35,216 nucleotides of DNA from Patescibacteria group bacterium (GTDB lineage: Bacteria > Patescibacteriota > Minisyncoccia > Minisyncoccales > Staskawiczbacteraceae). Position 1 is the first letter of the stretch. The number at the start of each line of letters is the position of its first letter. The DNA lies in the NCBI GenBank assembly GCA_018829965.1, contig JAHJTG010000005.1, positions 113,558 through 148,773 of the forward strand. The letters run 5' to 3'. This document shows, piece after piece, positions 6,888-33,907 of the stretch. The notes beneath the pieces were generated by a model, which was given only the letters and a program-made list of their open reading frames with translations, had not been told where the DNA came from and ran no database searches. Position numbers and translations under genes: made by a program.

Positions 6888-7643
6888 TTAATTATTATTT
6901 TCATTTAGAAGATGAAAATAATAATCGTTTGTTATATCTTTTAATAGTTTTTGGGAGAATGGAGGAATTTTTAGTTTAAATAAAGTATTCCATTCTCTTT
7001 TTAAAATTAATCTTAGGGTTTTTATAACGTCGGAATTTATCCTTCGACAATTCTCAGGACAAGTTCGTCTGGACTCTTTATCGTCTTTAAAGCAAGCTCG
7101 GCAAATTACTCCGCCTTCTTTTGAAGAAAAATAGAAAAATCCCAGCACTAATTTTTTCTGACAATTTGCGCATTTATAAAGCTGCGGCTTATATCCTAAA
7201 AGGTAAAAAAGATTCCAAATAAAATAGAAATATAATAAACGCAACTGTTTGGAATCAAACTCTAAATCATTCAGCCTTGAATATGTTTTTTTAAGCAAAC
7301 TAAATATTTTTTCGTCTTTCTCCTCTCCTTTTATCAAACTATCCACTGGTTCGTTTATCTTATAGGCCGTCCTTAATTTTTCTAAATTGCTTTTTATTCC
7401 TTCAAACTTTTCTAAAACCATGGCATCTGTAAGGGTTTTATACGCCTTGCCTTGGATAAACTCAATCTCCGACAAAGAAACAACATTAATACCGCTTTTT
7501 AGCTTTGAGGCAATTTTTCTAATTGCCCTGCCTAGAACTTTAATTTTCCCAAAATCTTGGGCAAAGACAGTGAATATTCTGCCGTGTTCTCCAGTGTCAT
7601 TTTTCTTAATAACAAACCCGCTGGTTCTGTAATGAGTTATCAT
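6888..7643 (-). CDS. recO: DNA repair protein RecO
   Basis: N-terminal OB fold (TSGFVIKKNDTGEHGRIFTVFAQDFGKIKVLGRAIRK), Zn-finger CANC...CRAC. Confidence 0.88.
   Translation of the reverse strand: MITHYRTSGFVIKKNDTGEHGRIFTVFAQDFGKIKVLGRAIRKIASKLKSGINVVSLSEIEFIQGKAYKTLTDAMVLEKFEGIKSNLEKLRTAYKINEPVDSLIKGEEKDEKIFSLLKKTYSRLNDLEFDSKQLRLLYFYFIWNLFYLLGYKPQLYKCANCQKKLVLGFFYFSSKEGGVICRACFKDDKESRRTCPENCRRINSDVIKTLRLILKREWNTLFKLKIPPFSQKLLKDITNDYYFHLLNENNN
7039..7076. repeat. dispersed repeat inside recO (CCTTCGACAATTCTCAGGACAAG)
   Basis: matches reverse complement of the ileS copy at 8932-8959 (CCTTCGGCAAGCTCAGGGCAAG) with 4 mismatches. Confidence 0.65.
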
Positions 7644-29889: not shown

Positions 29890-31143
29890 TTAGTGCGATA
29901 TTCTTCTATGCTCTTCTCTTACTACCTCTCTATCGTCCCAAGGAATCTTTTTAGAACCGATCACTAATAACTGCTCTGTGCCTTTGCCCAAAACTAAAAC
30001 AATATCATTTTCTTCTGTCAACTCCAGCCCTTTTTTAATTGCTTCTCTCCTATTTGGAATTTCGTATAAATTGGTTTTCTGAAACCCCTCCCCGATAACC
30101 CCTGATTTTATTTCTGATATAATCTCTTCTGGCTTTTCGTTATATGGGTCTTCATTGCATAAAATAATAATATCTGAGTTTTCTGCGGCTATCTTGCCTA
30201 AAACCGGTCTTTTCCATTTATCTCTCCCTCCACCAGCAGAACCGAAAATAGCAATTATTTTATTATGCGGAAAATCTTTGACTGCTTTAAAAACTTCTTC
30301 AAAAGAATCTGGGGTATGAGCTAAGTCTACAATCACTTTAAAAGGTTTTTCTATTATTACCTCCATGCGTCCCTGTATTGTTTTTATCTTTTCCAAAGCT
30401 CTTTTGCAGGTTTCTAAATTTACGCCGTATATTAAACCGATACAAATTGCCGATAGGGCGTTATATATATTAAATCTTCCTAATAGTTTTAAGTTGAACC
30501 TTATACTATCAATAGAAAAACTTACTCCGTCTCTCGATTCTTCTAAATCTTTTGCAAAGATTGCTTCGGGTTTTTGGTTCTTTGTGCTAAAGCCCAGTTT
30601 CTTTTCTGCTTTGAATCGTAAAAAATAATCTACATTTTTGTCGTCTAAATTAAGGATGTGATTCTTTTTCGTCGCTTTAAATAACTTCAGCTTTTCGTTC
30701 CTATAATTTTCAAAGCTTCCATGGGCTTCAATATGTTCTGGCTGTAAGTTAGTAAAAACAGCTGTATCAAAGGTTATAAACTTATGACGATATTGTTTAA
30801 TGCCTTCAGATGTTACTTCTAAAATTGCGTAATCGCATTTGGCTCTTACTGCTTTTCTTAAAAAACCTTGAATTTTAAAACGGCCGGGCATTGTCATATG
30901 CTCGGGGTTTAGAATTTCTTTATCACCAACTTTAATAGTAGCTGAAGTAAGCCAGGCAACCTTAAATCCCGCCTCTTCTAATATATTCCCTGCCAATATG
31001 GCAGTTGTAGATTTCCCCTTAGTGCCGGTAATCCCAATAACCTTTATCTTTTTGCTGGGAAATCTATGCCAAAAAGCGCTTATAAGCGCGAGTTTATAAT
31101 GATAAACATTAAAAATAAATTTAGGAATGAATTTTTTAATCAT
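29890..31143 (-). CDS. Mur ligase family protein (MurE-like)
   Basis: KVIGITGTKGKSTTAILAGNILEEAG, VFTNLQPEHIEAHGSFENYRNEK, GRMEVIIEKPFKVIVDLAHTPDSFEEVF. Confidence 0.9.
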   Translation of the reverse strand: MIKKFIPKFIFNVYHYKLALISAFWHRFPSKKIKVIGITGTKGKSTTAILAGNILEEAGFKVAWLTSATIKVGDKEILNPEHMTMPGRFKIQGFLRKAVRAKCDYAILEVTSEGIKQYRHKFITFDTAVFTNLQPEHIEAHGSFENYRNEKLKLFKATKKNHILNLDDKNVDYFLRFKAEKKLGFSTKNQKPEAIFAKDLEESRDGVSFSIDSIRFNLKLLGRFNIYNALSAICIGLIYGVNLETCKRALEKIKTIQGRMEVIIEKPFKVIVDLAHTPDSFEEVFKAVKDFPHNKIIAIFGSAGGGRDKWKRPVLGKIAAENSDIIILCNEDPYNEKPEEIISEIKSGVIGEGFQKTNLYEIPNRREAIKKGLELTEENDIVLVLGKGTEQLLVIGSKKIPWDDREVVREEHRRISH

Positions 31144-32160
31144 TTGCTTAATTGCTTTGAGATTTCGTTTTTTAGTTTATAGGAATTACAATGCTTTAAA
31201 ACTCCGAAATACGACTGGATTGTCTGCCCAAAAGAATACTTCGTTATTTTATTTTGTTCTAATCCTAATAATTTATTATTTATCTTTTTAAACATTCTTC
31301 TCTTAGTTTTTGTTCTTAAAACTCTATGACAGGGAAAACTCACATATCCTAGAAAATCTGCGCCTTTATAATACTTTCTAATACTTATCTTAGCCGGATG
31401 CAGAGATAATTTCAAATTGTTTTTAAGAAAAGCATTTATCTCAAGAATAAGCTCTTTTAGATATTTTTTATCAACGCTTAAGATAATAAAGTCGTCGCAA
31501 TAACGGACATAGTATTTTATTCTCAGTTTTTGTTTAATAAATTGGTCTAGTTTGTTAAGATATATATTAGCAAATAATTGGCTGGTGATATTTCCTAATG
31601 GTAGCCCCCTATTAAAACTTCTAATTATTTTCTCTATTAACCAGAAGGCGTTTTCATCTTTGATTTTCTTTTTGATTAAATTGGTTAAAACATCTTGATT
31701 AATAGAGTCAAAGAATTTTTTAATATCGCATTTTAAGACAAAACAAGTTTTAGTGCTGTTTTTGCCAACTTTTCCAGCAAATTTCTGAAGCCGATTTATG
31801 GCCCTATGGGTTCCTTTATCGTTTCTGCAAGAATAAGAGTCGGAAATAAAGGACTTATCAAAAATCGGATACAGAATCCTAAATACGGCGTGATGTAAAA
31901 CTCTATCCTTCACACAGGACTTATGGATTCTTCTTAGCTTTGGGTCGCAGATATTAAATGATATATAGTCAGAATGACAATAAGTTTTAGTTTTTAATTC
32001 GTAATGGAGTTTGAATATATTACCTTCTAGGTTATACTCAAACTCCTGAACGTCTTTTTTCTTTCTTTTGCCTTTTTTAAATTCGTCCCAAGCTAAAAAT
32101 AGGTTTTCAAGAGAAATAATTTCATCAAAAATATTATGACTTTTAAATCCCCCCCCCCAA
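31140..32160 (-). CDS. DGR-type reverse transcriptase; 5' end disrupted relative to an ATG by a G10 tract. The ORF track shows only 31140..31913 (GTG start), but the frame is open to the G tract and encodes the RT N-terminus
   Basis: SHNIFDEIISLENLFLAWDEFKKGKRKKKDVQEFEYNLEGNIFKLHYELKTKTYCHSDYISFNICDPKLRRIHKSCVKDRVLHHAVFRILYPIFDKSFISDSYSCR...GLPLGNITSQLFANIYLNKLDQF...YVRYCDDFIIL (DGR-like LGNxTSQ and YxDD-type motif). Confidence 0.9.
32149..32158. repeat. C10 homopolymer (G10 on - strand) at the overlapping 5' ends of RT and avd
   Basis: ten consecutive C in an otherwise very AT-rich region. Confidence 0.97.
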
Positions 32161-32170
32161 CCAGTTTAAT

Positions 32171-32503
32171 TTGCCTATTTTGCATAAAGTTTATGAGTTG
32201 TATAAATTGTTTTATCAATACCTTGAATCTTTTCCGAGAAAAGACCGCTATGTTTTAGGCCAAAAATGCGAAAATATAATTTTGGAGATTTTAGAATTGC
32301 TTATCTCTACGACACAATTTTTTAATAAAAATAAGAAAATAGAACTGTTAGAAAAAGCGAGTATAAAATTAAACGTGTTAAGAATTATTGCCCGATTAGC
32401 AAAAGATGTAAAAGTGTTGGATTTAAAGAGATATATTATTTTACAAGAAAAAATTAACGAAATCGGAAAAATGCTTGGTGGTTGGATAAAATCGTTAAAA
32501 TAA
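32171..32503 (+). CDS. avd: DGR accessory variability determinant (Avd-like four-helix bundle protein)
   Basis: LPILHKVYELYKLFYQYLESFPRKDRYVLGQKCENIILEILELLISTTQFFNKNKKIELLEKASIKLNVLRIIARLAKDVK; only a TTG start in the present frame, an ATG at 32136 becomes in frame with one extra C. Confidence 0.85.
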   Translation: MPILHKVYELYKLFYQYLESFPRKDRYVLGQKCENIILEILELLISTTQFFNKNKKIELLEKASIKLNVLRIIARLAKDVKVLDLKRYIILQEKINEIGKMLGGWIKSLK

Positions 32504-32518
32504 TAAAAACGGTTTTAC

Positions 32519-32557
32519 TAGAGACACCCCTAGAAACTAGGAACGTCTCTTTTTTTA
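32519..32557 (+). terminator. intrinsic terminator of avd
   Basis: AGAGAC-acc-CCTAG-aaa-CTAGG-aac-GTCTCT-TTTTTT. Confidence 0.88.
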
Positions 32558-32572
32558 GAATAGAGAAAGAAG

Positions 32573-32687
32573 TTCGGGAGGCGGCAAGACCAAGATTGTC
32601 ATTAACATTGTCATCCGAGTAGTTGTTGACATTCAAACCATCAGGATCAGAGTTACCGACATTGAGACGGTTGCCATTCGAAGAAAT
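32573..32687 (-). repeat. DGR template repeat (TR), 115 bp
   Basis: aligns without gaps to 32996-33110; 7 mismatches, every one at a TR adenine (sense = - strand). Confidence 0.96.
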
Positions 32688-32803: not shown

Positions 32804-32995
32804 AAGAAGTTCAGTCTCTATTAAATAACTCTTGCGGGGTTAAGCCGTAACCGAACCCTCATTAGCAAGTAACCATATTATACAAAATTTCGCGACAAAA
32901 AAATAACCCTGCAACAAAACGAACATTCGTTTTGACACAGGGTTAGAATTAACGATTCAATTCTCAAATCTCAAAGATTCAAGACTGAACTTCTT
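32804..32995. repeat. 13-bp perfect inverted repeat abutting the VR
   Basis: AAGAAGTTCAGTC (32804-32816) and GACTGAACTTCTT (32983-32995). Confidence 0.85.
32905..32944 (-). terminator. long hairpin downstream of the VR: intrinsic terminator of the variable protein gene and/or DGR retrohoming cruciform
   Basis: AACCCTG-CAA-CAAAACGAA-CA-TTCGTTTTG-ACA-CAGGGTT, T-tract on - strand. Confidence 0.85.
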
Positions 32996-33824
32996 TTCGG
33001 GAGGCGGCAAGACCAAGATGGTCACTAACATAGTCATCCGAGTAGTTGTAGACATTCAAACCATCAGGATCAGAGTAACCGACATTGAGACGGTGGCCAT
33101 GCGAAGAAATATCCTGGCATCTACCATATTTTGTCTGATTAAGGTAGATACCATTCTTCTTATAATAGAGGACGTGTTTTGTAATTTCCTCTATCGCAGA
33201 TGGCACTTCGTACTCTGCCGAAAGCATTGCTTTTTGCTGGTCAAAGGTCTTACTTGTAGAGTCAGGGATGATTTCCAACGGCATCAGATACCATTTGTAT
33301 TTGCAAATCGATTTATTGACGAATTCCTCTCTAATATACCAAGCGTCTGCATAACGATAGAAGCGTAGCTGACCAGGAGCCGGACAAATCTCTTGCCACT
33401 TAACGATAGAAAGGGGATCGCCATTAATTTGGCTAAGCCCGAGAAACGCAAAGTGCGTGTCTTTAACCATTTTACCTTTGTAAAACGGGCAAGGGCCATT
33501 CAAAATATCCTCATTGTACGGAAACTTTTCTATCTCGCGAAGCTGTTTTTTGGTGAAATTGACACCAAAATCTTTTGCCCAATTTATAGAACCGTAGTAA
33601 TTTTTGCCCATAATAACACGGGCGATTTCTTGGCTGATAGACGGCTGAAAGCCTTTAGTCAGCCAGAAACTTACTAAACGTTCCCGAAATTTTGGGTCAT
33701 CAATTGGCACCTGCAGATCATTATAAGTAAGACCTGCCTCTTCCAACACACGATGCAAGGTTGCCAGCTTACCGGATACCTTGCTAAAACTAACTTGGTT
33801 CACAATGGTTTTTTTATTTTCCAT
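32979..33824 (-). CDS. DGR variable (target) protein with C-terminal VR; ORF track start 33875, likely start ATG at 33824 (MENKKTIVNQ) preceded by AAGGTG
   Basis: C-terminus SSHGHRLNVGYSDPDGLNVYNYSDDYVSDHLGLAASRKEVQS encoded by the VR. Confidence 0.9.
   Translation of the reverse strand: MENKKTIVNQVSFSKVSGKLATLHRVLEEAGLTYNDLQVPIDDPKFRERLVSFWLTKGFQPSISQEIARVIMGKNYYGSINWAKDFGVNFTKKQLREIEKFPYNEDILNGPCPFYKGKMVKDTHFAFLGLSQINGDPLSIVKWQEICPAPGQLRFYRYADAWYIREEFVNKSICKYKWYLMPLEIIPDSTSKTFDQQKAMLSAEYEVPSAIEEITKHVLYYKKNGIYLNQTKYGRCQDISSHGHRLNVGYSDPDGLNVYNYSDDYVSDHLGLAASRKEVQS
32996..33110 (-). repeat. DGR variable repeat (VR), 115 bp
   Basis: see TR; A-to-C x3, A-to-T x3, A-to-G x1 relative to TR. Confidence 0.96.
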
Positions 33825-33907
33825 CGTACACCTTCCCTTCTTTGTAAAAGGACTTCTTTTTTCTGAACGAAACACAATGTTTTGTTCTACATTATATCTA
33901 TAACATA

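Follow-up and report, generated by a model that had tools for sequence, protein, structure and literature searches.

The window analysed here (the whole stretch of DNA, 35,216 nucleotides in length) belongs to a 740-kb genome that is 99.7% complete and whose relatives are Patescibacteria. It contains an RT gene on the minus strand and an avd gene on the plus strand that diverge and overlap at their 5' ends, followed by a template repeat (TR) and a target gene that carries the variable repeat (VR). A tract of ten C residues lies inside the overlap. The coordinates of these features are collected in Table 1.

Table 1. Features of the avd/RT locus in the window (positions are those of the window).
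Feature	Position	Strand	Remarks
Likely avd start codon, ATG	32136..32138	+	Precedes the tract by 13 nt; not in frame at C10
C10 tract (G10 on the RT strand)	32149..32158	+	Within the overlapping 5' ends of avd and RT; proposed switch
TTG	32171	+	Sole in-frame avd start at C10; positioned after the tract
avd body	32171..32503	+	bAvd PF22296, E 1e-21; NCBIfam NF033474 DivGenRetAVD, 97.5 bits (cut-off 80)
Likely RT start codon, ATG	32183..32185	-	27 nt from the tract, on its other side; out of frame at C10
RT open frame (P0001, 341 aa)	31140..32165	-	RVT_1, E 1.9e-21
TR, 115 nt	32573..32687	-	29 adenines
VR	32996..33110	-	At the 3' end of the target gene
Target gene	32979..33875	-	VR at the C-terminal end; ORF end at 32979

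The best PDB match of the RT was 8ub7 chain A (E 1.1e-45), and motif 4 of the protein reads LGNITSQ, the form that this motif has in diversity-generating retroelements (DGRs). The Avd match scored above the curated NF033474 cut-off, the target ORF carries the VR at its 3' end, and the TR and VR had 7 mismatches in 115 positions, all 7 of them at TR adenines. Sequence searches of Pfam, NCBIfam and the PDB gave no match for the target protein. With its RT, Avd, TR/VR pair and VR-bearing target ORF, the element is a DGR. The confinement of the TR/VR differences to adenines indicates that this DGR has been active in the past, although the assembled RT and avd are cut off from their ATG codons. The element resembles the DGRs of the BPP-1 type in its 8ub7-related RT, its Avd, its adenine-only TR/VR differences and a VR that ends the target ORF. 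Unlike known DGRs, it has a divergent avd that overlaps the RT start, with a non-triplet simple repeat within the overlap. By host group, it may be placed tentatively in the Patescibacteria-restricted DGR clade 2 (Roux et al. 2021, PMC8144416).

A hairpin followed by a T run, resembling a terminator, is found at 32517-32555 of the window, 3' of avd and before the TR. The same genome also has a second DGR (L012, G000:C3:103113-104075) with the same divergent overlap, in which there is only a G6 run and avd is in frame; in L034, a same-genus relative of L012 that is 89% identical upstream, the run is G9 and avd is also in frame. The third RT copy of the genome (L058, G000:C3:84298-85264) occupies two overlapping frames that are split near residue 150, and its avd is intact and in frame.

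The original prediction had described a C10/G10 tract at the overlapping divergent starts of RT and avd, and its reading of the sequence was right in every detail checked. On the minus strand, the RT frame is open with a TAA just upstream of it, and no ATG, GTG or TTG is available between the tract and an internal GTG at 31913, which is the first start. The avd frame on the plus strand is open through the tract. As predicted, changing the tract to C11, or equivalently to C8, brings both the avd ATG and the RT ATG into frame, so that each gene would be joined to its own start codon. At C10, the TTG behind the tract could yield some Avd.

A chance homopolymer was considered and rejected. The window has three overlapping C8 matches, all from the C10 tract, against 0.39 expected, and repeats occur at the same site in related loci far more often than in control windows (see below). 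Only three tracts of C8 or longer are present in the whole 740-kb genome; neither the other C10 (C16:239445) nor a C8 located in a terminator-like stem (C3:197556) is a DGR site. That only other C10 of the genome (G000:C16:239445-239454, or L010:2946-2955; G10 on the minus strand) seems to lie inside a small membrane-peptide ORF and is possibly part of another phase-variable gene.

RT loci were collected from whole genomes that share the family, class or phylum of the window, from GTDB contigs and from viral contigs, and were reduced to 267 distinct DGR RT loci, almost all from Patescibacteria, 245 of which have a divergent avd. A simple repeat was found at the overlap of the avd and RT starts in 175 of the 267 loci and was missing from 92. 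Of 5,304 control windows placed at other positions of these loci, 34 had a repeat, some of the 34 being clustered. The comparison with related genomes proposed by the original prediction revealed a slippage-prone repeat of six kinds at the same place. G runs of G7-13, mostly 9-10 long and always with G on the RT strand, account for 149 of the 175 repeats, and the others are (AG)n (14 loci), (GT)n (6), (CT)n (3), (CCTGT)n (2, with arrays of 37 and 43 nt) and (ATTG)n (1, with an array of 28 nt). The repeat unit was 1, 2, 4 or 5 nt long in 175 of 175 loci and never divisible by 3, versus 4 of the 34 repeats in the controls. Because the kinds of repeat are interchangeable at one site, the comparison argues that slippage, not a particular sequence, is likely the conserved property.

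Repeats were also noticed elsewhere. Behind many of the G tracts stands a motif of modest strength, [CA]TTA[AG]A[AG]G; the G12 tracts at the 3' end of RT in L038 and L039 have a similar flank. In about ten loci (L078, L080, L081, L085, L086, L179, L186, L199, L038 and L039), a repeat coincides with the 3' end of RT or lies immediately behind it, at approximately +1020 to +1130 nt relative to the RT anchor. These repeats are tetranucleotides (GGAT, ATAG, GTAG), C13, C7 and G12; in L038 and L039 a surface-protein-like ORF follows the repeat. Ten DGRs without a junction repeat (L159, L192, L211, L237, L248, L299, L324, L326, L329 and L332) carry a (GA)n repeat midway along RT, immediately ahead of motif 4, at approximately +520 to +580 nt relative to the anchor; six of these are in frame, L329 is out of frame, and the other three have no assigned frame. 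Many RT matches break at about residue 185, which may have the same cause as the mid-RT (GA)n. Among viral contigs, the G-tract pattern matched 12 contigs, none with an RT or avd. The viral contig L340, which is not a DGR, has three G8 tracts within 340 nt (at 7412, 7567 and 7749), and at least two of them are seemingly near the starts of small ORFs.

How the repeat bears on the reading frames was analysed with start codons assigned by rule. All 164 loci that have both a repeat and an avd keep the avd frame open across the repeat, and in 163 of the 164 an upstream ATG was joined to avd in at least one length class. In the unambiguous loci the joined ATG was always within 57 nt, while 44% of comparable control sites antisense to RT bodies were without such an upstream ATG. 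At the assembled length, the avd ATG was in frame in 37 of the 164 repeat loci versus 78 of 81 repeat-free loci (Fisher 4e-31), and two of the three repeat-free exceptions (3/81) are masked with N. Only 27 of 144 unambiguous loci were ON, which is below one third (p = 1.3e-4; the loci are related, so that binomial p-values overstate their independence). This shortage may come from typical lengths and geometry and not from selection.

For RT, 75 of the 175 loci, the window included, were without a start beyond the repeat, and the other 100 had a possible RT start past it. Where each gene has a single ON class, RT and avd shared that class in 41 of 42 loci; the shared class spans 39 combinations of distance and length and is also true of (AG)n loci. 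Such sharing is expected when the ATG of either gene is in codon register with the gene facing it. Within avd bodies, only 10% of the antisense ATGs that have an open frame were in register, and therefore the lock between RT and avd is not a by-product of the overlap. Because the loci share ancestry, the p-value of the lock is indicative only. The idea in the original prediction that one repeat switches both genes thus holds for the shared ON length, but RT is tied to the repeat in the 75 loci and not in general. It appears that Avd is the constant target of the repeat (164/164), that RT is co-controlled in a subset, and that joint control is not universal. In the 100 loci with a possible RT start past the repeat, Avd alone would be switched. 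This should suffice, because homing of the reconstituted BPP-1 DGR is abolished when either Avd or bRT is inactivated (PMC12875486).

On a tree of 259 RTs, the presence of the repeat changed 27 times against a shuffled mean of 73, and the length class modulo 3 changed 59 times against a shuffled mean of 59.2. Thus, the presence of the repeat is inherited, whereas the frame state is without phylogenetic signal. Sister G tracts differed in 31 of 46 species-level pairs. In one comparison, L018 (G9) is ON and L019 (G10) is OFF with no gap in 585 flank columns; in another, L150 (GA, 13 nt) is ON and L161 (GA, 17 nt) is OFF. No length difference was found in 27 same-key locus pairs, but these pairs look like duplicate records. 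The absence of mismatch repair would favour slippage, and MutS_V had no match in 19 of 19 genomes (the window genome and 18 relatives), while 11 of 14 control genomes had one. The tract, the frames, the conservation of the repeat, the two-gene lock and the random frame state across species were computed directly. The phase-variable on/off switch that had been predicted draws its support from this comparative evidence, in which the repeats are conserved and the frame class is random with respect to phylogeny.

We propose that the tract is a slipped-strand contingency locus that would phase-vary Avd and, in a subset of DGRs including that of the window, RT (probability roughly 0.85). Slipped-strand mispairing during replication would alter the length of the repeat. 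One length class in three would join the avd ATG to Avd in frame, and the same length would join the RT ATG to RT, the divergent genes overlapping in codon register; in the other two length classes, both Avd and RT would end early. Since both Avd and RT are needed for mutagenic retrohoming, a single indel would heritably toggle targeted hypermutation, and the state would be inherited until the next slip. The window element would be OFF at its assembled C10. We infer that tracts slip often within populations, that the VR is mutated in ON cells, and that the OFF state has the advantage between episodes of diversification.

The main rival to such a switch is recoding, in which slippage of RNA polymerase or of the ribosome would make some in-frame Avd and RT at any length. 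Homopolymers can slip, and 127 of the 164 loci have no in-frame upstream ATG at the assembled length, yet their genes are intact and their TR/VR differences are kept. However, the same site is also filled by (AG)n, (GT)n, (CT)n, (ATTG)n and (CCTGT)n, which are not known recoding sites, and the shift required is in either direction or none (72/45/27 by nucleotide class), while programmed frameshifting is unidirectional. Repeats with units of two, four and five nucleotides in particular make recoding unlikely. The intact genes of the OFF loci bear also on the idea that the DGR is decaying and that the frameshift is the first step of pseudogenisation. Genes out of frame at the assembled length would be expected of decay, and the RT copy L058 in the window genome is indeed split between two frames; but all 7 TR/VR differences in the window are on adenines, and a full-length RT is retained in 120 of 123 OFF loci versus 82 of 90 repeat-free loci. 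A complete avd was found in 125 of 127 OFF loci, and TR/VR mismatches fell on adenines in 92% of cases in OFF loci, 95% in ON loci and 92% in tract-free loci. We consider decay hardly credible. An error of sequencing or assembly, the mundane alternative raised by the original prediction, would mean that the true tract is C11 and that both genes are simply in frame. Although homopolymers are error-prone and one base restores both genes, such errors cannot account for repeats from di- to pentanucleotide at the homologous site in independent genomes (175 loci, with pentanucleotide arrays of 37 and 43 nt among them), and the assembled lengths are spread over the three frame classes with ON the rarest. 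As a general explanation, error is very improbable; a one-base error in the tract of the window itself is possible, and the interpretation would stand regardless.

A further alternative is that the G run acts as a G-specific element, such as a G-quadruplex, a protein site, a promoter spacer or a Shine-Dalgarno-like sequence, with its length incidental. This would agree with the excess of G runs (149/175), all with G on the RT strand, and with the motif behind many of the tracts. It leaves the frame effects and the shared ON length unexplained, and the site is filled by other units in 26 loci and by no repeat at all in 92, so that we regard it as scarcely tenable. The last alternative concerns the extent of the switch rather than its existence: only Avd would be switched, and the RT of the window would be made from an unrecognised start after the tract. 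The possible RT starts beyond the repeat in 100 of 175 loci are in its favour, as is the closest relative (L014), whose RT starts at an ATG downstream of the tract. On the other hand, the window offers no ATG, GTG or TTG before GTG 31913, and an untranslated RT leader would give no reason for the ON lengths of RT and avd to agree. For the window, an Avd-only switch is unlikely, and we favour the phase variation of both genes by the tract.

Phase-variable genes with poly-G/C tracts are known from the contingency loci of Campylobacter, Neisseria and Helicobacter (PMC8437040, PMC6321876, PMC2823697). The DGR repeats share with these a position near the 5' end of the coding sequence, variable lengths, non-triplet units and a predicted frame-dependent ON or OFF state. 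While those loci switch a surface structure or a methylase, the DGR repeat would switch a machine that generates mutations, and unlike them, one repeat would gate two divergent overlapping genes. The homopolymeric 5' off-switches of Orsi et al. 2010 (PMC2831843) are likewise runs near gene starts that allow reversible inactivation; those are poly(A) or poly(T) tracts in many genes, whereas the DGR site is one system with six kinds of repeat. Both halves, the DGRs and the simple-repeat contingency loci, are thus already known, and their combination is apparently unreported. The search, which covered open-access papers, did not find it, and its matches concerned host or phage surface variation instead; priority is therefore not certain.

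Roux et al. 2021 (PMC8144416) reported that the targets of cellular-encoded DGRs, including those of a Patescibacteria clade, turn over more slowly, and left undetermined whether the slower turnover reflects stronger control of RT activity. A slippage switch is a concrete, heritable candidate for such control in cellular DGRs, and a compact one, with two divergent genes gated by one repeat. Across the Patescibacteria, it is probable, with somewhat less confidence than we place in the switch itself, that an untargeted generator of mutations, an interchangeable slippage repeat, gates the hypermutation of DGRs through Avd and often through RT by way of the in-register overlap, and that intermittent hypermutation has evolved repeatedly. 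The latter is suggested by the DGRs that have no junction repeat and sometimes carry one elsewhere, such as the (GA)n in the middle of RT. If the switch is real, many Patescibacteria genomes are assembled at an out-of-frame repeat length, and their avd and RT are probably cut short or overlooked by gene callers as a result. The ON or OFF state could be read from the repeat length in existing metagenome reads, and clonal populations of these bacteria would carry a minority of diversifying cells.
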